Shown here piece by piece: positions 3,610-40,751 of a DNA stretch of 51,537 nucleotides. The notes below the pieces were generated by a model that did no database searches, was not told the DNA's origin, and was given only the letters and a program-made list of their open reading frames with translations. Made by a program: the position numbers and the translations under genes. Within the stretch, counting starts at the first letter, position 1, and the number at the start of each line of letters is the position of its first letter. Source of the DNA: Bacteroidota bacterium (GTDB taxonomy: Bacteria > Bacteroidota > Bacteroidia > Chitinophagales > UBA2359); assembly GCA_020630215.1 (NCBI GenBank), contig JAHDBT010000003.1:1-51537 (forward strand), read 5' to 3'.

Positions 3610-3753
3610 TTATTTGGTTTCTTTTGGCTTTTCTGTAACATCCAAAACCATCTTAAAGTCAACCCAATAAACCCTTATTAGCCTGTTTTGTCTCTTTTTT
3701 TTGGTTGCTCTACCGAAAAGCTTTTTGTAAGCTTCATTAGTTCTAATACTCAT
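3610..3753 (-). CDS. hypothetical small basic protein, 47 aa
   Basis: ATG at 3753 overlaps the last 11 bases of the upstream gene (stop at 3743), an arrangement typical of translational coupling. The 47-residue product (MSIRTNEAYKKLFGRATKKK at its start) is strongly basic in the middle (KKKRQNRLIRVYW). It ends just before the 3569-3601 operator. No family recognised; it could bind nucleic acid. Confidence 0.5.
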   Translation of the reverse strand: MSIRTNEAYKKLFGRATKKKRQNRLIRVYWVDFKMVLDVTEKPKETK

Positions 3754-3994
3754 ACTTAATTCCTCCTATTTTTTGACTTAACGACGGCTTGTTTTTTCCT
3801 ACATACCGCCTATAAGATTTTATTTTCTTGACATGCTCTCTTTTCGCTTTTCTTGATTTCCGTTTTTCTTTTCGGGCAACTTCTGCTGTTGCGCTGTTGT
3901 AAGAAAGTATTAGGACCAAAGCAATTATAATAGGTGCCGCTAACTGCAAGGGCCAAAGCTTCATGCCTTTAGCATGGTTTCTTGTATCTTTCAT
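3743..3994 (-). CDS. small membrane protein with basic tail, 83 aa
   Basis: A single hydrophobic segment at residues about 14-34 (LQLAAPIIIALVLILSY) is followed by a very basic region (ARKEKRKSRKAKREHVKK). The charge pattern predicts the basic tail in the cytoplasm. It is transcribed divergently from the membrane-protein cassette starting at 4102, through a shared 107-bp promoter region. Family unknown. Confidence 0.65.
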   Translation of the reverse strand: MKDTRNHAKGMKLWPLQLAAPIIIALVLILSYNSATAEVARKEKRKSRKAKREHVKKIKSYRRYVGKNKPSLSQKIGGIKYEY

Positions 3995-4839: not shown

Positions 4840-5243
4840 ACGACATTACCTATAAGGAGTTAGAAAATCTTATAGGCATAATGAAAAAAAACAGGCTTCG
4901 GGCAAATCCATCACTAAGGATTAAGGAGGCGATAGAGGCTGTTTATTCGGGCAAAGACATTTCTATTGATGTGATAACTAAGGAAAGAAATTATTTGCCC
5001 TTTACTGAATTGGATATTCATTCAGCAAGAAGCCAAAAAACAGGCGAACAAATATCTTATTTCCAGCTTACAGAAAATGATATTTATTTGTTTGGAAAAT
5101 GTCCTGGTGTGAAAGTTTCTTTATTGATACTAAAAAGCAAGGGTAAAAAAATAAGGTGTGAAGTTCAAGCAACTAAAATTGATTTGAAAAATCCGCACAA
5201 AGCAATAGAACCTTTTTTAAAAGAATGCAACTTTATTAATTAA
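4824..5243 (+). CDS. hypothetical soluble protein, 139 aa
   Basis: The start overlaps the upstream stop by 16 bases, implying coupled translation. The protein has no membrane segment. A helical N-terminus (TYKELENLIGIMKKNRLRAN) leads into a beta-rich C-terminal half (DIYLFGKCPGVKVSLLILKS). It is the only soluble product in the membrane cassette, so it could be a cytoplasmic partner. Not recognised. Confidence 0.7.
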   Translation: MQREINDITYKELENLIGIMKKNRLRANPSLRIKEAIEAVYSGKDISIDVITKERNYLPFTELDIHSARSQKTGEQISYFQLTENDIYLFGKCPGVKVSLLILKSKGKKIRCEVQATKIDLKNPHKAIEPFLKECNFIN

Positions 5244-5263
5244 CTAGAAAAATCAATACGATT

Positions 5264-6022
5264 ATGGCAAATTATTTAACCCCGTCGCTCCCACTTGACA
5301 CGGAAGACGGTGGAGACACAGAAAACAACGATTTAATCGTTTTGGATGATGCAAAAAACAAAAAAAACGCCAAGCCCCCTACAAAGAAAAGACCGAAAAG
5401 GCGAAAAAAATCAAGCACATCAATATCAAAAGCAGTTGATAATCACACCGACACGACTGTTAGTTTTAGTTTTGGCGTGATCCGTATGCTTATGATATGG
5501 TGTGCAGTGGCTTTAGTGGTTATGGCGGTATTTCTGCTGATAGGATTAAGTTTTTCCCATTCGGTTAAGTCTGTTTTTGCTGTTTTGCCGATGGCTTACG
5601 ACGTTTTAAGGTACGTTTTTGCAGTTTTGGCGATGCTTTTGCTCGTTTATTACGGTTATTTGCTTTCTCCTGCAATATCGGAAATAGCACGAAGTGAGGT
5701 ATATAACTGGTATGATTTGTTTTTTAATATCGCAAAAGGAATACCTGTCATGATGATAATTGCAGTAATAAGTTACTCGTTTCCGCTTCTCACTTCGTCA
5801 ATGAGTAGAAGTAGTGATATTTTTGCAAACCCACAGGACGCACAAGCGACTACAAACGGGCTGAAAAATCAAGCGACAATACTTCCGCACGAAGAACTAA
5901 TCGGATCCATATCGAGCAAAGTGTCTGGCTTGCTTGATGTTGCTGATAGCTTAATGGTAGTAGAAGACAAGGAGTTAAAAGCAAGAAAAGACAGCTTGCT
6001 AAACGTAAAAATCAAAAAGTAA
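5264..6022 (+). CDS. membrane protein with basic N-terminal cytoplasmic region, 252 aa
   Basis: Residues 1-65 are hydrophilic, with an acidic start and a run of KKRPKRRKK. Three hydrophobic segments follow at about 73-96, 113-134 and 155-175, then a soluble C-terminal tail (180-252) with helical character. The stop overlaps the next start (TAATG at 6020-6024). Part of the 4102-7441 cassette; family unknown. Confidence 0.75.
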   Translation: MANYLTPSLPLDTEDGGDTENNDLIVLDDAKNKKNAKPPTKKRPKRRKKSSTSISKAVDNHTDTTVSFSFGVIRMLMIWCAVALVVMAVFLLIGLSFSHSVKSVFAVLPMAYDVLRYVFAVLAMLLLVYYGYLLSPAISEIARSEVYNWYDLFFNIAKGIPVMMIIAVISYSFPLLTSSMSRSSDIFANPQDAQATTNGLKNQATILPHEELIGSISSKVSGLLDVADSLMVVEDKELKARKDSLLNVKIKK

Positions 6023-13964: not shown

Positions 13965-14472
13965 AACAAGCTTTACAGGATTGCAGCAGTCAATTTCAAA
14001 AGCAAGCAATCCCTGTATTAATGACCAAAATGAAAACTGTATGGACTTAAATTGTGATTTATGCGAATTGATCGGAAGTAGTATCGCAGAGGTAAATACA
14101 AATTTACTTGCCATACTCGATGCTATCAATAACCCAACAACGGAAGTTGTACAGCACAATATAGTAAGAAAACTACTAACTGCTTCAAGTCCTGTTGCCG
14201 ACAAGAAAATTCCGCAAGGTGCAATACACTTTAATATTATTCCATCAAGCATAAATATCGACACCAGCAGCCCAAATTTCGGGCAGTCGCTAAGTATTGC
14301 AGAACTCAAAAACCGTGTTAAGGACGTACAGGGGAACTGGTCTCCTTTGGTTGGCGTTTCAAGCTTCAACAGCAACGACGACCGCACAAGCAACAACAAA
14401 ACCTCTTTATTACCTGTTGACATCGAAATTGATGTAACAGGATTTGTAATCATTGAATATACTTTACCATAA
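13954..14472 (+). CDS. hypothetical structural protein, 172 aa
   Basis: Overlaps the portal gene by 11 bases. The N-terminal part has a cysteine cluster (NPCINDQNENC and DLNCDLCELIG). The middle is helical and the C-terminal half is beta-rich, ending FVIIEYTLP, with SLLPVDIEIDVTGF. Possibly a head-completion or decoration protein. Family unknown. The next gene starts inside its stop codon (TAATG). Confidence 0.6.
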   Translation: MKRETSFTGLQQSISKASNPCINDQNENCMDLNCDLCELIGSSIAEVNTNLLAILDAINNPTTEVVQHNIVRKLLTASSPVADKKIPQGAIHFNIIPSSINIDTSSPNFGQSLSIAELKNRVKDVQGNWSPLVGVSSFNSNDDRTSNNKTSLLPVDIEIDVTGFVIIEYTLP

Positions 14473-15347
14473 TGAAAAAATTATTTTATTTATCACTGCT
14501 TTTTATTTTAGCAGCCACCTTTACCCTTAACGCCCAAAGCGAGGGGCAAAATATCGTAAACCAATCGAACGGACTTGATTTGTGCGTGGTTTCAGGAACC
14601 GACACTATTAATGCTGTTATGATTGTTGATGTTTTTTCGGGTACAGTTAGACAAATCAAATTTTTTGACCTACAGCCTACGCCCGTCGAACTGACCGCAG
14701 TAACTTACGAGGACGTAGTGCCTTGTCCTAATTCGGTACAAGATGTTAATATATTTTATCAAGATACTATACCAACTATTCACAAAGTAAGCGGTACAGT
14801 AACAGATACTACTAAGGTTATTTCTTACGATAGATGCTTGCTTCGTGCAGCCGATACATTAGAAGTATCAGTACATATTAGCGAGCATACTGGCGAAATA
14901 GTACGGGTATTAGATTGTAATGATTTAACAGAAATAACCGTGCTTGCAAGCGAAACGCTAGAAAAGTGCATTGATACAACCACGGTTGAAGTCGTAGAAG
15001 AAAAAAGGCGTATTGTATATGTCAGGATTGATGCTAATCAAGCAGGAACGTCTACGTTATATGAAGCGGTCACGTCAGGAGGTACGGCAGGAGTTATAGG
15101 CAATACCTTTACTTTGGATTTTGATTTTAAATCATTTTCTATACAATGGCTAAGAGACACAGCACTCGACGGACAATTAGATGTGAACCAAAGGAGATAC
15201 CTAGCAGGCCCCAAAGTTGGCACAGCAGGCTATGTTGAACAATTGCCCTATGCGCTTTCCTACAATGACGAAGTATATACAGAAGACTATGTGTTCACAG
15301 CGACTTCGGGCGGTGTGCTTGAAATACAAATCGAACTGGAGCAATAA
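14472..15347 (+). CDS. secreted protein with Sec signal peptide, 291 aa
   Basis: Residues 1-22 (MKKLFYLSLLFILAATFTLN, then AQ) form a textbook Bacteroidota signal peptide. The mature part has two related units, one around residues 30-80 and one around 105-155, each with a DTxxxxVxVxVxxxTGxV...C pattern, then a beta-rich C-terminal domain. It starts in the portal-linked operon by a TAATG overlap. Export to the periplasm or surface is predicted. A phage head module normally encodes cytoplasmic proteins, so this placement is odd. Function unknown. Confidence 0.72.
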   Translation: MKKLFYLSLLFILAATFTLNAQSEGQNIVNQSNGLDLCVVSGTDTINAVMIVDVFSGTVRQIKFFDLQPTPVELTAVTYEDVVPCPNSVQDVNIFYQDTIPTIHKVSGTVTDTTKVISYDRCLLRAADTLEVSVHISEHTGEIVRVLDCNDLTEITVLASETLEKCIDTTTVEVVEEKRRIVYVRIDANQAGTSTLYEAVTSGGTAGVIGNTFTLDFDFKSFSIQWLRDTALDGQLDVNQRRYLAGPKVGTAGYVEQLPYALSYNDEVYTEDYVFTATSGGVLEIQIELEQ

Positions 15348-15874
15348 TGAAAAATTTATTCGAAATATTATTCTTGCTATTATTTTGCATTAGCCTAAAG
15401 GCTCAATCTTACAGTCAGCAGTTTCTTTTTCAGGACAACAGAACTAATTCTATTTTTGCTGGAAACGTTTCGTCATCAGCAAACGTAAATGCAAATTCGA
15501 TTGTGCTTGATTTGTCGGAAATATACAGCGACGGATCGAGCTGGTCGTTATCAACAGGTAACACTTTGCAGTTTTCTGGAAACCCCAGTATCGTAAAGAT
15601 TTCTGTAAACATTGCTTTTACCTCTGCATCAGCAAGGACAAATCCGAAAATAACAATAAAAGAAGTATCCGGATCGGTCAGGGTAATAGGGGCTGCATCG
15701 CATTCATACGCAAGAAATGCAAATGGACACAACGAGACGAGCTCAAATATTACAATAATAGACCCGTCACCGCCTGCCAACCCTATCTACATAATAGAGT
15801 CTAGCAGGGAAGCCAATTCAGGAAACGTGACAATACAAACACCGTCCACATTCTGGGCAGAAGCAATTTTTTAA
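15347..15874 (+). CDS. secreted protein with Sec signal peptide, 175 aa
   Basis: Residues 1-20 (MKNLFEILFLLLFCISLKAQ) are a signal peptide. The mature part is Ser/Asn-rich and beta-rich (SWSLSTGNTLQFSGNPSIVK). It is the second of four consecutive exported products, linked to both neighbours by TAATG overlaps. No family recognised; an extracellular beta-sandwich is likely. Confidence 0.72.
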   Translation: MKNLFEILFLLLFCISLKAQSYSQQFLFQDNRTNSIFAGNVSSSANVNANSIVLDLSEIYSDGSSWSLSTGNTLQFSGNPSIVKISVNIAFTSASARTNPKITIKEVSGSVRVIGAASHSYARNANGHNETSSNITIIDPSPPANPIYIIESSREANSGNVTIQTPSTFWAEAIF

Positions 15875-16728
15875 TGAAACACATACTTATTTTAATATCG
15901 CTGATTTTTTCAATTAGTGCATTTTCTCAGTCGTACAAAAACCAATCACTTGTTTATACTTGTGATTGTTCAGAACTTGTGCCGTTCGTTTCTAGCATTG
16001 ATGATGGCTTAATTTCGTCAACGCAAGATGTATTAATCGAGGGTGCAGGGTTTACGAGTTCGGTTTCAGTAGTAGGATTTGGCTTTACTGTCAATAGCAT
16101 TACTATTATTAATGGAAACGAATTGATTGTAAATGTAACGACAGGCACACAAGGAGTTTACTCTCTTATAATCAGTAACGAATGTGGAGAAACTCAATCG
16201 TTCTTAAATGTAGTGGACTTGATTTGCTTAGTTGGTGGCGATAATTCCGCATGGGAAAATATTAATAATGTTATCGTTGGTACTGGATCAATTCAAAGAA
16301 ATGCCATTGGCGCAAACGGCTGGTCTAACGGTGCCAGCTTCGGAGGTCTTTCAGGTGATTTTGAACTGGTCTTTACAGTCGCAAGCCTATCGGTCGGAAA
16401 TTCTGCACTAATGATTGGTGCATCGGATGTTGATATAAATCAAAACTACAACACCATCGACCATGCCATTTATTTGCTTAAAGCTGGAGCAAACTCGACA
16501 AGGGTTTACGAAAACGGTGCTTTTTCTTGGGGTACTGGAACTTATACTACTGGTGACATTTTCACAATTAGGCGAATAGGCACTAGTATTGATTATCTTA
16601 AAAACGGTACATCTTTTCATACTTCTACGTCAACAATAGACCCTGTTATTTTCGATACATCTTTTTATTATTCGGGCAGCTATAGCGGTACATCTATTAT
16701 TAACAACATTGAACTATGCGAAATATAA
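15874..16728 (+). CDS. secreted adhesin-like protein: Ig/TIG-like and lectin-like domains, 284 aa
   Basis: Signal peptide at residues 1-19 (MKHILILISLIFSISAFSQ). Residues about 40-110 resemble an IPT/TIG Ig-like domain (DVLIEGAGF, ELIVNVTTGTQGVYSLIISN). Residues about 125-280 resemble a jelly-roll domain of the SPRY/LamG kind: GTGSIQRNAIGANGWSNGAS, the GDIFTIRR strand, and DYLKNGTSFHTST. Such domains bind glycans or proteins at the cell surface. It may be displayed on the infected cell or assembled onto the virion. Confidence 0.7.
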   Translation: MKHILILISLIFSISAFSQSYKNQSLVYTCDCSELVPFVSSIDDGLISSTQDVLIEGAGFTSSVSVVGFGFTVNSITIINGNELIVNVTTGTQGVYSLIISNECGETQSFLNVVDLICLVGGDNSAWENINNVIVGTGSIQRNAIGANGWSNGASFGGLSGDFELVFTVASLSVGNSALMIGASDVDINQNYNTIDHAIYLLKAGANSTRVYENGAFSWGTGTYTTGDIFTIRRIGTSIDYLKNGTSFHTSTSTIDPVIFDTSFYYSGSYSGTSIINNIELCEI

Positions 16729-17105
16729 ACTTTTTTCTGAATTTAGTAATCTTACTTTTTGCTTGCTTGCCTGTTTTTTCGCAAGAAATAATTAGCATTT
16801 GTATTAATCCCAATAAGGTACAGATAGAATACCAGGAGGACCTTCTGCCAACAATCGTTACTTACAAGGGCGATACTTATAAGGAAGGTGTTTTGATAGT
16901 AAAGAAATACTTATGCGGTGATGAAAAAAACGTTTCAGTATGCGAACTTTCGGAAGAAGAAATGGAAGATTTTATAACAAAAAAAGGTGTTGTAGCATTT
17001 ATTGCTGAGAACAACCTACCAATTGAACCCCGAAAAGAAAACGGCAAATTAAAGAGTAAAAAAGAATTAATTAAAGATATTAAAAAATATTGTGATGATA
17101 AATAG
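16716..17105 (+). CDS. small secreted protein, 129 aa
   Basis: Overlaps the previous gene by 13 bases. Residues 1-22 (MRNINFFLNLVILLFACLPV) are a signal peptide ending near FSQ. The mature protein has a beta N-terminus (VQIEYQEDLLPTIVTYKGD) and a basic helical C-terminus (KLKSKKELIKDIKKYCDDK). Fourth exported product in a row, directly before a holin-like gene. Function unknown. Confidence 0.7.
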   Translation: MRNINFFLNLVILLFACLPVFSQEIISICINPNKVQIEYQEDLLPTIVTYKGDTYKEGVLIVKKYLCGDEKNVSVCELSEEEMEDFITKKGVVAFIAENNLPIEPRKENGKLKSKKELIKDIKKYCDDK

Positions 17106-22875: not shown

Positions 22876-22915
22876 CATAAAAAAGTTTTAAAAAAAGATT
22901 ATTCAGTAAACTTTA

Positions 22916-23778
22916 TTAAAATCCACAATAGCCGCTATCGCAATTAACCATATCAATATTTTTGCCAAACATATCAATCGGAAAGCTACTGTTTTTGATT
23001 TTATCGTAAGAAATATTTTTTTTCCAATACCCTTTTGCCCCCCCCCCTCTTGTTTGCTAAACCAATTATACTTTTTAGGGTGGTCAATTGACATTTTCTT
23101 TAAAAGTATTGCTTTGCGATGGAAGCACCCCACACAATTATTTAGCTCTGCAAACCTTACAGGCTTACCTTGCCAATAAGCCTCAATGTCTGACTTAAAA
23201 AGCCTGCTTTCAATTAGTGGGAAGTAGGGTTTTCGCCATCCTATGTTTTCCCATTTGTTTTTTCCGACATGCCTGCCGTCCGTGTGTTTTTCAAAAGTTG
23301 CTTTGTATTCAGATAAACCCAAATCGTTTAATTTCTCATACATTTTTTTGGCTCTACGCCACTCGTTGGCCCTGTAACCGATTGCCATTTCAACAGGGGT
23401 AAGATTGTATTTTTCTACCCACCAATAAAATATTGGGTCAATCTTTAGCCAGGTTGTGCAGTATCTGCGCAAAACCGATGGCAACCAAGTTCCTTTTTGC
23501 TCGATAACTTGTTCAAAAGTTAATCCCGAAACAATGTCTATTTTTCTTCCTAAAAATTGCTCTAAATCCAATATGGTATCGACAATAACATCATCTTCCA
23601 AAGTTCCGATAAACGGCTTTTGTATCCTATCCTCAATTATTGCGGCTTTTTTCCTGTCTTTGTACATCAAATCAGGGTCACTAGTCCTGACAAGTGCGAA
23701 AACTAAATCGTCGTAATCATAATTTGCAGCGATATAAGCAGAAGTCTTACCGCCCGAAATTGATACTACCTTTTTCAT
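22916..23778 (-). CDS. PAPS reductase-like protein (adenine nucleotide alpha-hydrolase fold), C-terminus out of frame at a G10 tract
   Basis: SISGGKTSA (residues 6-14) is the PP-loop of the PAPS reductase/ATP-sulfurylase-like family, and YCTTWLKIDP (107-114) and NNCVGCFHRK (Cys215, Cys218) also fit. At 23038-23047 there is a run of ten C (ten G in the gene). As read, the frame continues from there to a stop at 22903 with an unrelated tail. With one more G it continues as KGYWKKNISYDK and ends NCDSGYCGF at 22916, restoring a second Cys pair (280, 285) expected for a metal or Fe-S site; the protein would be 287 residues. Either a homopolymer error or length variation that switches the protein. 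Phage members are common but of unclear role. Confidence 0.72.
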
Positions 23779-34859: not shown

Positions 34860-37784
34860 ATGATTAAAATACTAATAGACGGCAAACAGTTCGTTTTTTC
34901 AAACGACATTCTCGACCAAATTTCGTTAGTTTCGGAAATTGACAATAAAGGTATCTTGCATAGCGGAAGTAAAAGGGCAATGTCTTTTAATCTGCCTGCT
35001 GTTGGTCAAAACGTAGAGGGTTTAAATTGTGAACTTTCAGAAACAATTGTCGAGGTCGGAGGCAATGAGATATTTGTCGGAATTGGCAAGCTTGATACAA
35101 TAGCAAGCACAAGCAAGATGCAGCCAATGCTGTCTTTTCAAGCTTGGGCGGCCGCTAAATGGTCACAAGCATTAAACAGCCCTATTTGTGACTATATGCC
35201 CGAACCGTTTGTGTGGAGCAAAGCAAATATTGATAACACCATGCTTCAAACAGCAAGCGTAAATCCTTATGATGCTGGTTTTGATGTTGTGTACTATCCT
35301 GTTGTATACGGTGGTCAAAGTTACGGGCGTTGGAATTATGCCGATATGTTGCCGCATTTACCGATATTGCAAATTTTGGAAAAGTTCTTTTGTGCTTGCG
35401 GTATTACTATCAAGTCCGAGTTTCTTTTTTCTGACTACTTTAAAAGACTTACAATCCCTTTTGTTTGGGGGCGTTTTGGGAACAATAACGAGTATTACAA
35501 GAACAATGTAAACGCATACATAGGACAGCAGGGTATTTATGGGATTTACTCGTTAGACCCTGCTATACAGCATATTTTCCCTATGAATTTTAACAATCAA
35601 AGCGGTATTTATTACGACAATGGCGGTAATTTTAACACGCTTAATTATACATACACTTTTCCCGAAAATGGTGTTTATTGTATAGCGGTCGATATGCAAA
35701 CTAACTTCGTAATGACTTACAATACAGTACGTTTTTATGCCGTAATTGATGGAGTAGAAATTACGCAAGGTGCATTTTTTACCAATGATAGTTTAAATAC
35801 TTCAATAAGTTTACGGTTTGATAATATGACTTTTTTAGCGGGGCAAACTATAACTTTCAATATTGCTATAGAAAGCTACCATTATTTATACGGCTACGAC
35901 CCTAGCCAAGAATCCATACTTTTCGGCTTTGAGTTTTACGATGCTTCTTTATTAATCGAAAAAAAGCCACGTTACGAAATAGGCGACACGATCAACTTCA
36001 AAAGATTTATTTCGGATGAAATACCAATTTCTAAGCTTTGGGGTGCTATCAAGAAACGGTATAACTTACATACGGAATACAACGAAGCAAAAGGTATTGT
36101 TTGTATTGAGCCAAAATTTAATTGGCAAGAAAATACAGGCGAAATTGGCGACGGTTTTATATCTGAAAATATGGGTACGATTAATCTTGATGAAAAAATT
36201 GATTATTCAGTACAATATACAAAAAAGGTTTTCGATAGCATTAAGCAAATCCAATGCTTTCGGCATCAGTCCGATAGCAAAGATGCTTACCTTACTAATA
36301 TTGAAAATACTTATGTACAAACACCGCACAAAGTCCGTTATAATTTTTCAGAGCGTTACGGACAGGGTGAAGACACTACAAAGGACGATTTTGCACCAAC
36401 GGTTCACACGATAATAGGAGGGGCGCAATATCCTGTTATGATTAGAGAGGCTAACGAGGAGATAGGTACCGGAACTATCACAAAGGAACTTGATTTTTCA
36501 GCATGGAAAATATTGTATTATGCAGGTGAAGCTTCGGGAAATTGGGGTTTTAATGCTACAGTACTAACTACATACCCGAAGGCTTTTTTTGTAGATTACT
36601 TGGACGAAAACGGCACAAGCCCCAATCTTGGTTATGCCAATTTGGAAATAAACGGCAACGATGTAAAGGGGCTTTTTGATATTTACCATCATAGGTCTTT
36701 GTTTTCGATGCGTGGCAAATATTGGGAAAATATAAATTTACTCTTATCAAATACGGATTTTGCAACATTCACGCATAGGCAACCGTTCGCAATTGAAGGA
36801 ATGAGATATTTTGTAAGTGCCATTAAAAACTTCCGTCCTACTTCCGAGTGTTCCACAAAAATACGTGCTTATAAAATAGATTACCCAACAATCCAAGACT
36901 GCGACAATGTTAATAATAGCAGCACACCAACACTAGTAACCTTACCCGTCGATGACTGCGAATGTGATTTGCGTTTTTCTTGTGAAACAAAAACTGTACT
37001 AGGTGTACCGCTTGTGTGTATTACGGCAAGGGTTTTTAATTGCACAGGGAGAAAAGGTCCGGATATTTATGAGTGGGATGGAACGGAATATATACTAAGT
37101 ACTTACACTGTAGAAACCCAGGGTTATACGAGATGTACGCAGTTACCGCTTGATTTGTGCGAACTGGTAGAAGCTGACAGGCAAACAGTAAACATAACCC
37201 AAAGCGGCTTCGATAATGCCACTTTTGATGGTACAACTTTTGTTTTTTCTGTTGATGCAGTAACTTTAAGCAACCCAAGCGAATACGAGGCAGTAAAATT
37301 GAATATTCAAAATTGTGTAAACTCTAGCGAGCAACTACTTCGCCTATCATTATTTATTCAGTCAGGGGGTTTCTTGATGCGATTCAATGGTGTTTTTTAC
37401 GTACCAAACATAACAAACTTAATGTTTGACGACATAAATCAAACTATTAGTTTTGATTATGATACAACATTTGTTTTTTCGGGCGTTTGCGAGGACGTAA
37501 TAAATACCCAACTAAATGATGGTCATACCGCACTTTCTGACTTGCAAGCATTAGGTGCGACGGGATCAGGTAGTTATAATCGTGTATTGACTAGGTGCTA
37601 TTCATACGAACAACCAACAATACAACCCATTAAATTTAGGCTTCAATATTGTGAAAGCTTGGAAGAAAACACAATAAAACAATCCGATTACAGCATAAGT
37701 TTTGAAGACTTGTCAGACCCGTGCAGTAGCTACATCGTTACTAAAGTAAACTCAATTGTAAGCGTAGAAACCGAAATTGAATAA
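34860..37784 (+). CDS. large tail-tip/baseplate protein, 974 aa
   Basis: One of the two largest genes. N-terminal residues 1-110 (LIDGKQFVFSNDILDQISLV) resemble the hub-like start of baseplate proteins. Residues 150-400 hold beta-rich modules, and residues 690-760 a Cys-rich stretch (DDCECDLRFSC, FNCTGRKG). The size and position before a lipoprotein gene and upstream of the tape measure module suggest a tail-tip hub or receptor-binding protein. No single family is confirmed. Confidence 0.65.
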   Translation: MIKILIDGKQFVFSNDILDQISLVSEIDNKGILHSGSKRAMSFNLPAVGQNVEGLNCELSETIVEVGGNEIFVGIGKLDTIASTSKMQPMLSFQAWAAAKWSQALNSPICDYMPEPFVWSKANIDNTMLQTASVNPYDAGFDVVYYPVVYGGQSYGRWNYADMLPHLPILQILEKFFCACGITIKSEFLFSDYFKRLTIPFVWGRFGNNNEYYKNNVNAYIGQQGIYGIYSLDPAIQHIFPMNFNNQSGIYYDNGGNFNTLNYTYTFPENGVYCIAVDMQTNFVMTYNTVRFYAVIDGVEITQGAFFTNDSLNTSISLRFDNMTFLAGQTITFNIAIESYHYLYGYDPSQESILFGFEFYDASLLIEKKPRYEIGDTINFKRFISDEIPISKLWGAIKKRYNLHTEYNEAKGIVCIEPKFNWQENTGEIGDGFISENMGTINLDEKIDYSVQYTKKVFDSIKQIQCFRHQSDSKDAYLTNIENTYVQTPHKVRYNFSERYGQGEDTTKDDFAPTVHTIIGGAQYPVMIREANEEIGTGTITKELDFSAWKILYYAGEASGNWGFNATVLTTYPKAFFVDYLDENGTSPNLGYANLEINGNDVKGLFDIYHHRSLFSMRGKYWENINLLLSNTDFATFTHRQPFAIEGMRYFVSAIKNFRPTSECSTKIRAYKIDYPTIQDCDNVNNSSTPTLVTLPVDDCECDLRFSCETKTVLGVPLVCITARVFNCTGRKGPDIYEWDGTEYILSTYTVETQGYTRCTQLPLDLCELVEADRQTVNITQSGFDNATFDGTTFVFSVDAVTLSNPSEYEAVKLNIQNCVNSSEQLLRLSLFIQSGGFLMRFNGVFYVPNITNLMFDDINQTISFDYDTTFVFSGVCEDVINTQLNDGHTALSDLQALGATGSGSYNRVLTRCYSYEQPTIQPIKFRLQYCESLEENTIKQSDYSISFEDLSDPCSSYIVTKVNSIVSVETEIE

Positions 37785-37800
37785 TTTAAAAAATACCAAC

Positions 37801-38115
37801 ATGAAAAACCTTTTATTTTTTTTAGTCTTATTGTCCTGTCTGTTTTTTTCTTGCGATAAAGAGAACGTACCCGAACACATCGGGCTATGGTGTGCAGGGA
37901 ATTACTGTATTGAGTTTAGCGAATATGAAATGGATAGTTATACTTTTGAGAATGGCGAAATTGTAGGCGAAACATTATCAGTTTATTATAAGCTAATCGG
38001 AACGGTACTTTATGCCTCCACAACTTTAAATGGTCAATATTTTTATTTTTCGGAATTGGAAATTGACAAGGATAAAATGCTGCTTTATGGATTAGAATTT
38101 GAACGGCAACAATAA
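37801..38115 (+). CDS. lipoprotein (superinfection-exclusion candidate), 104 aa
   Basis: I start at ATG 37801; an in-frame ATG at 37777 would overlap the tail gene. Residues 1-18 are a signal peptide ending in a lipobox (LFFSC, Cys19), then DKEN. The mature part is a small beta-rich domain (GLWCAGNYCIEFSEYE) of about 85 residues. It directly follows the tail-tip gene and precedes a terminator. Phages such as T5 place a receptor-blocking lipoprotein next to the receptor-binding gene, so the same role is plausible here. Confidence 0.72.
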   Translation: MKNLLFFLVLLSCLFFSCDKENVPEHIGLWCAGNYCIEFSEYEMDSYTFENGEIVGETLSVYYKLIGTVLYASTTLNGQYFYFSELEIDKDKMLLYGLEFERQQ

Positions 38116-38118
38116 AAA

Positions 38119-38152
38119 AAGCCCCTGTTAGGTATTATCCTAACAGGGGCTT
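38119..38152. terminator. bidirectional rho-independent terminator
   Basis: Perfect 14-bp stem (AAGCCCCTGTTAGG at 38119-38132, CCTAACAGGGGCTT at 38139-38152, loop TATTAT). On the minus strand it is followed by a run of T. It separates the plus-strand tail operon from the minus-strand lysis operon that ends at 38185. Confidence 0.9.
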
Positions 38153-38184: not shown

Positions 38185-39261
38185 TTATCTGTAAGCACTT
38201 TCGACAACTGTTGCATCGACAAGCGCATTTCTTATGAAATTATTAATGTCGGTTAATTCCTTTTTTGTTAGCCCTAATTGATGCGCTCGGATAGCATTCT
38301 TTATTGTTTTCTCGCTGCTATTGTGCATATAAAAACCGTCAAAAGGTAGATTTATTAATGTTGGTGCTTTTATTTTATCAGCTTTAAAATCGCTTTTGGC
38401 TATTTTTTCAGAATAGTGATTGTTGCCAAGTGCAGGGCTATTATGGCACGAGATACATTTACCTAAGAAAACACGCAACCCCCTAAGTTCCGACATATTG
38501 AGCGTATTTTTACCCATCAAAAACTGATTAAAAGGAGTAAAAGGCGTGCGGTCAATTTGTTCTTTTACCACTATCGCTTGTACAATCCTGTCTTTATTTA
38601 CCAACGTATCGCCAAAAGCAAGTTTGAAATATTGCTTCAATATCGGTTCTTTTTTGCATCGTTCAAAATCAAGGTTATGCACCTTACTTCCTTTTGCTGC
38701 TTGCAGTTCGATACCGTTGTAACCTTTATTGCAAAGCCCTGCTATGTCCGAGTGTTTCTCTAAAAATAAAGGACTTTCACAATTTAGCGAGCCATCCCAA
38801 AGCACACCGTTTTTACTGTAAATACTGTTTACGTGCGTTGGTGTTGCTACTTTTTGGCTGTCTACAAGTTCTGTAAATTTTTGCCTCCACTCACCAACAC
38901 CTGTTGCGCCTTTTCCGTAACCAAACCGAATGCCTGCAAACCCTGCTTTTGCCCTATTATGGCAACTTGCGCAACTCGTAAAGCCTTGCCCAATTGTGAC
39001 TAAAGGATTGTTAAAAATAAAGTCGCCTGCATAATAAGCCCATAAAGTATCAATTTCCATTCTTACCGTAAGGTCTAAGTCTTGATAATTTTCGGCAATT
39101 ATCAAATTGTATGGTTCGGCAGACTTTCGTAAACTATCGGCAAGTACTCGGTGTGCTTTGGTGTACCTGTATTCTTTATTTTGGGGAAAAGAATAAAACG
39201 ACATCAAGGTAATGATGCCGAAAATTAATGCAAAAGAAAGTATTATTTTGTTGTTTTTCAT
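38185..39261 (-). CDS. di-haem cytochrome c peroxidase-family protein
   Basis: Two c-type haem motifs: CASCH (97-101) and CISCH (269-273). An N-terminal hydrophobic segment (residues 5-24) acts as signal peptide or anchor. Family landmarks include ATPTHVNSIYSKNGVLWDGS (139-158) and APTLINLPFDGFYMHNSS (299-316), where Met312 could be a distal haem ligand. At 358 residues it has the normal family length and no breaks. CcpA/MauG-type enzymes reduce peroxide or oxidise protein side chains in the periplasm. It overlaps the amidase gene by four bases (ATGA), so it belongs to the lysis operon. It depends on host cytochrome c maturation. Confidence 0.9.
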   Translation of the reverse strand: MKNNKIILSFALIFGIITLMSFYSFPQNKEYRYTKAHRVLADSLRKSAEPYNLIIAENYQDLDLTVRMEIDTLWAYYAGDFIFNNPLVTIGQGFTSCASCHNRAKAGFAGIRFGYGKGATGVGEWRQKFTELVDSQKVATPTHVNSIYSKNGVLWDGSLNCESPLFLEKHSDIAGLCNKGYNGIELQAAKGSKVHNLDFERCKKEPILKQYFKLAFGDTLVNKDRIVQAIVVKEQIDRTPFTPFNQFLMGKNTLNMSELRGLRVFLGKCISCHNSPALGNNHYSEKIAKSDFKADKIKAPTLINLPFDGFYMHNSSEKTIKNAIRAHQLGLTKKELTDINNFIRNALVDATVVESAYR

Positions 39262-39989
39262 AATGTAGAGTTTAAGTATTGTAATCCAAAATAAGACACC
39301 GCACCCTGTATAAGTGCTTTCATTGCTGACTTTTGGCGTTCTTGATTTAGTATTATTTCTAATTCGCTAGGGTTGTCGTAATGATGAAACTCTAGCATCT
39401 TTGCAGGCATTTTGGTTTCTCTAAGTACCCCTAGATTATATTCAAAATCCATGTCACCGTCGCCAAAATCCCTATTAACTTTAAATCCATTTTTTATAAA
39501 AAACGGTTCAGTAATAGTTGCCAATTCGTCGCTTTTTGTTTGCCCAAAATAAGTTATTAACTTGATGCCCGTACCTGTATGTGTTGTTGTAGCATCGTGA
39601 TGTATTGATAAATATATACAATTACATTCATCATAACCCCCCATTTTGTAAGCTGCATTTGCTTTCCTTACTCTATCCGAAATACTATTGTCTTGGTAAA
39701 TGTCACTTACTACCAAGTAAGGGAGATTGTTTGCTACACATTCGATAATAGCAAGTCTTAAAAGGTTTCTATTTAGCATACCCTCATATAATACTTTTCC
39801 GTCCGCATGTTCAAACTCTCGGCTAGGCGTTTGATTAATTCCTGTATTTGGGTCTACTCCACCATGACCAGCATCTAGTATAACTAACACGTTAGGTACT
39901 TCGTTTTCTACGAGCTTGGTTAAGCGGTCTATCTTTTTACTTAGCACTCTTATTGGAGACATGCTAAAGGTATCTTTTGTTTTACTCAA
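39258..39989 (-). CDS. N-acetylmuramoyl-L-alanine amidase (Amidase_3), endolysin
   Basis: Zinc-binding and catalytic residues are in order: DAGHGG (His42), YEG (Glu69), SIHHDA (His130 or 131) and LEFHHYDN (Glu200). DQDxSIxDRVRKAN follows the Amidase_3 pattern. At 243 residues it is essentially one catalytic domain with a short basic N-terminal helix (KKIDRLTKLVEN) and no cell-wall-binding repeats. It hydrolyses the bond between muramic acid and the stem peptide. No signal peptide, so release would need the holin-like protein. Confidence 0.9.
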   Translation of the reverse strand: MSKTKDTFSMSPIRVLSKKIDRLTKLVENEVPNVLVILDAGHGGVDPNTGINQTPSREFEHADGKVLYEGMLNRNLLRLAIIECVANNLPYLVVSDIYQDNSISDRVRKANAAYKMGGYDECNCIYLSIHHDATTTHTGTGIKLITYFGQTKSDELATITEPFFIKNGFKVNRDFGDGDMDFEYNLGVLRETKMPAKMLEFHHYDNPSELEIILNQERQKSAMKALIQGAVSYFGLQYLNSTL

Positions 39990-40203
39990 AATTAGTTTTT
40001 ATTTTATTAGTTCCCTTGTTTTTGCCTCCATAGGTACGGCAAGTTTTTAAGGTTAAATTATAATCACGATGGTAACGAAAACCGCTTTTTTCGGCAATGG
40101 CTACATTTGCGGTTGTCCTAGTTATTAGGTGCGTTGTAGTTTTTCCGTAATTGGTATTAATTACAATATCACCTGTATTTATTTTCTTTAGTTTTTTTCT
40201 CAT
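39982..40203 (-). CDS. hypothetical small basic protein, 73 aa
   Basis: Start shares bases with the upstream stop (TAATG); its end overlaps the amidase by eight bases. A small basic beta-rich protein (TGDIVINTNYGKTTTHLITR) that may be an SH3-like barrel. Its place before the amidase suggests a role in lysis or DNA binding. Not recognised. Confidence 0.62.
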   Translation of the reverse strand: MRKKLKKINTGDIVINTNYGKTTTHLITRTTANVAIAEKSGFRYHRDYNLTLKTCRTYGGKNKGTNKIKTNFE

Positions 40204-40751
40204 TACATGCCAATGTTTAGGGCAATATTTCGCCTGTTTATGAAAAATCCTAACATTTCAGACCATACGCTTATTTTTGCCTCCGCTACTTCTTTTTTTA
40301 TTTTGCCTCTTTTCACCCATACTGGGTAATATTTGTTTCTTGCATCAAGTTCAGTTTTCAGAACTTCGCAATATGCGTTTAATCGGTCGCCTGTAATTGG
40401 GTAATGATTAAATCGGTTAATATCCTTTAGGGCAACACCTATTGAAATAAGCGTGTTTATTTTATCGACTTTTGGCTTTTTTAAGTTTCGTTCAAAACCT
40501 ATTTCATCCTTTAAAGCCCTAGTATATAGACCGTGTTCCAACTTCGACGGCTTCAAGCTGTATTCCCTGTTAAGGAACTTTTCGGCATTCTTTTTTTCTT
40601 TAAAGCTTTCGATTAAGACAAGCTCCTTGTTTGCTTCGCTATCAATAGCGACAAACTTACTTTTGTCTTGACTTGGGAAAATTACTCTTTGTGGGGGCGT
40701 TTTTTCAGAAAAGGCTATTTTGGTAGCTTCTTTTGATGTGATTTCTTGCAT
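40203..40751 (-). CDS. hypothetical protein, 182 aa
   Basis: ATG at 40751, first gene of the lysis operon, divergent from the tape measure gene. Contains an alpha/beta N-terminal region (KSKFVAIDSEANKELVLIES) and a helical basic C-terminal region (KRGKIKKEVAEAKISVWSEM). No family recognised. Confidence 0.65.
   Translation of the reverse strand: MQEITSKEATKIAFSEKTPPQRVIFPSQDKSKFVAIDSEANKELVLIESFKEKKNAEKFLNREYSLKPSKLEHGLYTRALKDEIGFERNLKKPKVDKINTLISIGVALKDINRFNHYPITGDRLNAYCEVLKTELDARNKYYPVWVKRGKIKKEVAEAKISVWSEMLGFFINRRNIALNIGM

Follow-up and report, generated by a model that had tools for sequence, protein, structure and literature searches.

A putative di-haem redox enzyme encoded next to the endolysin of a Bacteroidota phage

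Does a di-haem protein gene that overlaps the endolysin gene of a phage encode a working redox enzyme, and what could such an enzyme do for a virus about to lyse its host? The window, that is, the whole stretch of DNA analysed here (51,537 nucleotides), is an entire contig that appears to be a complete, circular phage genome of 51.5 kb with identical ends of 55 nt, and it carries genes for the large terminase (TerL), a tape measure protein and a head protease. It belongs to a binned genome, a 7.4-Mb draft of 767 contigs with 5% estimated contamination, and the bin is likely the host of the phage. The di-haem gene lies among phage genes and overlaps the endolysin, as expected of an auxiliary or moron gene, and its base composition (GC 0.377, GC3 0.34) is like that of TerL and other structural-region genes of the phage.

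The di-haem gene and its operon

The features of the locus are as follows.

38185..39261, minus strand: gene for a di-haem CCP/MauG-superfamily protein (ORF call, PF03150, PDB sequence matches)
39181..39261, minus strand: N-terminal hydrophobic segment, residues 1-27, probable export signal or anchor (hydropathy only)
38959..38973, minus strand: first CxxCH haem motif, CASCH, residues 97-101 (invariant in 46 aligned sequences)
38443..38457, minus strand: second CxxCH haem motif, CISCH, residues 269-273 (motif and alignment)
39258..39989, minus strand: endolysin, N-acetylmuramoyl-L-alanine amidase, Amidase_3 (PF01520, 4e-14; phrog_435 'endolysin', 2e-15)
39982..40203, minus strand: 73-aa ORF without assigned function, overlapping both neighbours (ORF)
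40203..40751, minus strand: 182-aa ORF without assigned function, first in the operon (ORF call)
38119..38152, no strand assigned: intrinsic terminator between convergent genes, its T-run partly on both sides (stem-loop, folding energy)

The ORF at 38185-39261 on the minus strand begins with ATG and encodes 358 aa, in which both haem motifs of the original prediction are intact. The profile search that had been proposed for di-haem peroxidase families gave a clear match to PF03150 (CCP_MauG; 50 bits against a gathering cut-off of 25.6), and PF00034 (Cytochrom_C) scores 23.9 bits over the C-terminal part. The nearest PDB sequences are the di-haem peroxidases 1iqc and 3o5c (E ~1e-15), and Foldseek ranks di-haem CCP/MauG proteins first, with weak AlphaFold models (pLDDT 48 and 54, TM ~0.3). 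Judged by the PF03150 match and the two haem motifs, the protein is a member of the CCP_MauG superfamily. The anticipated signal segment corresponds to an N-terminus that is hydrophobic (a Kyte-Doolittle value of 2.75 across the 15 residues starting at residue 6) and in which no lipobox was found.

The operon consists of four overlapping genes (182 aa, 73 aa, amidase and CCP), of which the CCP gene is the last, and lies on the strand opposite to the tail genes. The stop codon TGA of the amidase and the start codon ATG of the di-haem gene overlap by 4 nt as ATGA, and the terminator has a 14-bp perfect stem, a 6-nt loop and a T-run (-26.1 kcal/mol, z -6.1); both features agree with what had been read from the DNA. 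The description as a lysis operon holds in that this is a phage operon with an endolysin, but the operon is longer than was described and, since no holin or spanin was recognised among its four genes, it is the amidase by itself that carries the label. The 182-aa ORF has no match in Pfam, PHROG or NCBIfam, the Bacteroidota promoter pattern is absent in front of the operon, and the Rfam search gave no match.

Other genes of the window deserve mention in their own right. A small lipoprotein-like ORF without a family match (37777-38115, plus strand) is convergent with the CCP gene, and a small lipoprotein-like ORF (3649-3975) also lies near the di-haem gene of locus L039. The structural region includes a run of proteins with signal-like N-termini (14472-17105, plus strand), which is many for a 51-kb phage. 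The product of 22903-23778 (minus strand) has an N-terminus that by eye is like phosphoadenosine-phosphosulfate-reductase-like phage proteins, with no Pfam match at 0.001.

Active-site residues and the subfamily

Four residues of the predicted active site and electron path are informative.

38797..38799, minus strand: Trp155, aligned with the inter-haem Trp of canonical enzymes (Trp in 39/39 subfamily members and 3/5 canonical)
38701..38703, minus strand: Gln187, at the position of Q104 in CcpA and Q103 in MauG (invariant)
38677..38679, minus strand: His195, at Q+8 (invariant in the subfamily, which is without the canonical Glu at Q+10)
38281..38283, minus strand: His327, in the distal-ligand slot of the second haem by alignment (phmmer pairing, alignment)

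The expected CcpA/MauG landmarks are thus present as regards the superfamily, Gln187 and the haem motifs, but not as regards the distal Glu, the ligand slot and the scores against MauG and MbnH models, which are far below cut-off. In alignment A2, Glu occupies Q+10 in all five canonical CCPs of the binned genome and in none of the 34 bacterial and five viral subfamily members; the window protein has Leu197 at this position and a compact relative, L010, has Ile. The distal-ligand slot, 14 residues after His313, holds Tyr in the five canonical proteins, Lys in 33/34 bacterial and 5/5 viral subfamily members, and His in the window protein, L010 and a further relative, L202. Independently of A2, phmmer pairs His327 with the axial Met of 3o5c, presumably a haem ligand in that enzyme, and we infer that His327 is the distal ligand of the second haem, giving His-His ligation. 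The position of Trp155 we take to be that of the inter-haem Trp, as its role in the family suggests. That His195 stands in for the distal Glu is a guess.

The window protein retains 14 of the 18 positions that do not vary among 44 relatives (mean identity 28%), and the six residues that attach haem are all among them, a pattern that argues against debris, as the original prediction had held. The protein is, by its residues, a member of an uncharacterised subfamily, for which neither an assay nor a function was found, either in Bacteroidota or in the C48C1-type phages described below. L006 and its relatives make up a widespread subfamily of 450-aa CCP_MauG lipoproteins with Tyr-Lys at the distal-ligand slot and without the catalytic Glu, to which no NCBIfam model gives a name above cut-off.

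Apart from the phage gene, six CCP_MauG genes are present in the binned genome, along with two for cytochrome assembly (PF01578), so haem loading of the phage protein would be possible in this likely host. L006 (456 aa, a lipoprotein), the subfamily member of this genome, is 27% identical to the phage protein, and none of the CCPs of the bin is a near-identical copy of it.

Relatives in phages and mobile elements

Genome searches for relatives of the window gene covered about 1,300 genomes in total, with overlap, and two compact relatives stand out among them, with 29-35% identity to the window protein. L010 (33-35%) was found in a genome of the same family as the bin (G019) and L202 (29%) in one of the same order (G769). 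The L010 contig (6.4 kb) carries a phage-type RNase H and a DNA polymerase exonuclease subunit and is likely a phage, while that of L202 (5.5 kb) carries a phage-type integrase, a GIY-YIG protein and a phrog_25176 member and is likely an integrated element, both contigs being short. All three proteins are compact and without a lipobox, have one residue added behind the first CxxCH motif, and share His195-Asn196 and His327. They also form a clade in the tree (99/90), but all on very long branches for which the tree program warns of long-branch attraction, and the shared residues are the better argument for the grouping. L202 is without Trp155 and His313; these losses and the very long branches may reflect relaxed constraint. 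A pattern search of genome contigs gave 34 matches, of which only L094 was of use, being the same contig as L010.

Single-protein scans of IMG/VR with the window CCP, the amidase and TerL gave no matches, and neither did a two-row alignment or two motif patterns. The amidase-peroxidase pair, for which the original prediction proposed a search of related phage genomes, was not found in other phages, and amidase relatives in related genomes are without an adjacent CCP gene.

A second group of phages came to light only with the protein of GenBank Phage C48C1 and a wider alignment as IMG/VR queries. This phage (156 kb, filed under Kyanoviridae) encodes a 473-aa subfamily member annotated as hypothetical (WJE87955). 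The scan gave 23 close relatives of this protein and, with the wider alignment, 63 loci, 62 of which yielded a comparable protein (clusters of 48, 8, 4 and 2); 42 distinct long proteins are found among these relatives. Viral contigs with a C48C1-type gene reach 160 kb, a terminase is present on three contigs of 145-160 kb, and the neighbours of the di-haem genes include phage exonuclease, cytidyltransferase and endolysin families. The median dN/dS is 0.10 (43 pairs of the largest cluster; simple Nei-Gojobori, approximate because many dS values are high), and the C48C1-type genes are under purifying selection. In one contig (L168, 9872-11967; IMGVR_UViG_3300006802_000185), a radical-SAM/SPASM gene begins 2 nt beyond the end of the di-haem gene, and the two are a possible protein-modification pair; a peroxiredoxin (4997-5554) is encoded ~4.3 kb upstream of the di-haem gene. 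Matches to Salmonella and Escherichia 'phages' were left out of the count, since the records are either short and unannotated or as large as a chromosome, and the proteins look like common enterobacterial di-haem CCPs.

The C48C1-type clade is separate from the window clade (100/100) and adjoins two sequences from genomes of the same class (98/97). Since the two clades are separate, the subfamily would have been taken up at least twice by phages or mobile elements, if the tree is right. The original prediction named conservation in other phages, with the haem ligands intact, as support for a phage function. The subfamily shows such conservation on 62 viral contigs; for the clade of the window protein itself it is seen on no more than two contigs, both short, which carry phage-type or integrase genes. 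Absence from related phages combined with a near-identical host copy had been named as the sign of error; no such copy was found and other phages carry the subfamily. Because related genes occur in a second virus lineage, the gene looks like real but undescribed virus cargo.

Possible roles and comparison with known enzymes

We tentatively favour an exported di-haem peroxidase-like redox enzyme, carried as phage cargo and most likely reducing peroxide in the host envelope, a reading about as apt to fail as to hold. The protein would be made together with the endolysin through translational coupling and, by what is known of the family, probably exported by the host Sec system and loaded with haem by the host c-type maturation system. 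The second haem, predicted to be His-His ligated, would receive electrons from a cytochrome c or quinol chain of the host and pass them past Trp155 to the first haem, where H2O2 would be reduced, Gln187 and His195 doing the work of the Gln and Glu found in other enzymes. What the phage might gain is a stressed host that is kept respiring, or protection of envelope or virion parts, until lysis. The family assignment and the Foldseek ranking, with its weak models, speak for peroxidase cargo, and the retained invariant residues and the second phage lineage with its low dN/dS suggest it as well. Against it stand the absence of the distal Glu from the window protein and from the whole subfamily, and possibly also the very long branches of the window clade and the losses in L202.

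Published variants of related enzymes bear on this choice. BthA E277Q, in which the distal Glu is changed, is inactive (PMC6405878), which speaks against the usual peroxidase chemistry, unless the part of the Glu is played by some other residue, possibly His195. BthA Y463H loses the bis-Fe(IV) signal and keeps peroxidase activity, and MauG Y294H likewise abolishes the signal (PMC6405878). His327 would thus fit a peroxidase better than MauG-type chemistry. A MauG/MbnH-like modifying enzyme consequently seems unlikely; with H2O2 as oxidant, it would act on Trp or other residues in a protein of the phage or of the host envelope and might in this way alter a receptor or surface layer. The best named NCBIfam models are nevertheless of this kind (the His-Xaa-Ser-associated MauG-like TIGR03981, TIGR04039 and TIGR03791, all far below cut-off). 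Within L168 the radical-SAM/SPASM gene points to this chemistry and the peroxiredoxin to the peroxidase reading, and neither gene is seen in the window; no radical-SAM gene or substrate candidate was recognised beside the window gene, and a survey of the neighbours of bacterial subfamily members showed no constant partner gene.

An electron-transfer or haem-binding protein without peroxidase catalysis, for instance an electron sink or a blocker of a respiratory partner in the envelope, would account for the Glu missing throughout the subfamily, the predicted His-His second haem and the further losses in L202. We consider it quite unlikely, as a pure electron carrier would have no use for a distal pocket, yet the window protein and L010 retain Gln187, His195 and Trp155 together with the two haem motifs. 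The long branch and the failure to find a related phage with the amidase-CCP pair could also be expected of a host-derived passenger gene that drifts without benefit to the phage, but this is improbable: the frame is intact, haem and pocket residues are retained, the operon is an overlapping one, and members of the subfamily turn up repeatedly in mobile elements and in another phage lineage, where selection is purifying. Nothing was found for an assembly chimera of phage and host DNA beyond the fact that the window is a contig of a draft bin with some estimated contamination; the 4-nt endolysin overlap, matching GC, intact convergent terminator, identical contig ends and lack of a near-identical chromosomal copy make it highly improbable.

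On a broader scale, phages may have repeatedly recruited a di-haem enzyme for a role in the host envelope late in infection, and one mobile lineage may have remodelled it (His for Glu, His-His second haem), a redox function undescribed for phages; this picture is possible, though it would more readily prove wrong than right. Searches of open-licence PubMed Central brought up no phage-borne CCP or MauG gene, so novelty is provisional; some 'MauG' text matches in the auxiliary-gene literature were surnames (Maughan, Maughmer). Antioxidant genes as such have a precedent in viruses, since a nickel superoxide dismutase encoded by a virus is listed in a work in which 'cytochrome c peroxidase' refers to bacterial genes (PMC9448743). 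If active, the protein would be a c-type haem enzyme placed by a phage in the host envelope around lysis, and its residue pattern (missing Glu, invariant His, His ligand) leads to clear predictions that are testable with one purified protein.

By defining residues and curated cut-offs, the window protein is not a canonical CCP, MauG or MbnH. It shares with bacterial CCPs (CcpA/BccP; 1iqc, 3o5c) the two c-haem motifs in the same order, PF03150, Gln187, Trp155 and probable export, but differs in lacking Glu at Q+10 (E114 in CcpA), in having His instead of Met or Tyr at the ligand slot, in its identity of only ~25-28% and in being phage-encoded. MauG, MbnH and BthA belong to the same superfamily, and the models for MauG and MbnH score among the highest of the named NCBIfam families, but at roughly one tenth of the curated cut-offs (TIGR03791, 32.6 against 443.85; TIGR04039, 37.9 against 362.85); the window protein is without their Tyr ligand and Glu (Tyr294 and Glu113 of MauG correspond to His327 and Leu197), and no partner gene or substrate was recognised. 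The nearest chromosomal relatives are the 450-aa Bacteroidota lipoproteins (L006, L013, L020), which are alike in the invariant Q187-x7-H195, SCASCH and the missing catalytic Glu, whereas the window clade is ~100 aa shorter, without lipobox and C-terminal tail, and has one more residue behind the first CxxCH motif, Asn in place of Arg196 and His in place of Lys at 327. The C48C1-type proteins (WJE87955 and its IMG/VR relatives) are lipoproteins of their own clade, with Lys at the ligand slot and no amidase overlap seen, but they belong to the same subfamily as the window protein, are likewise phage-borne and carry both haem motifs.
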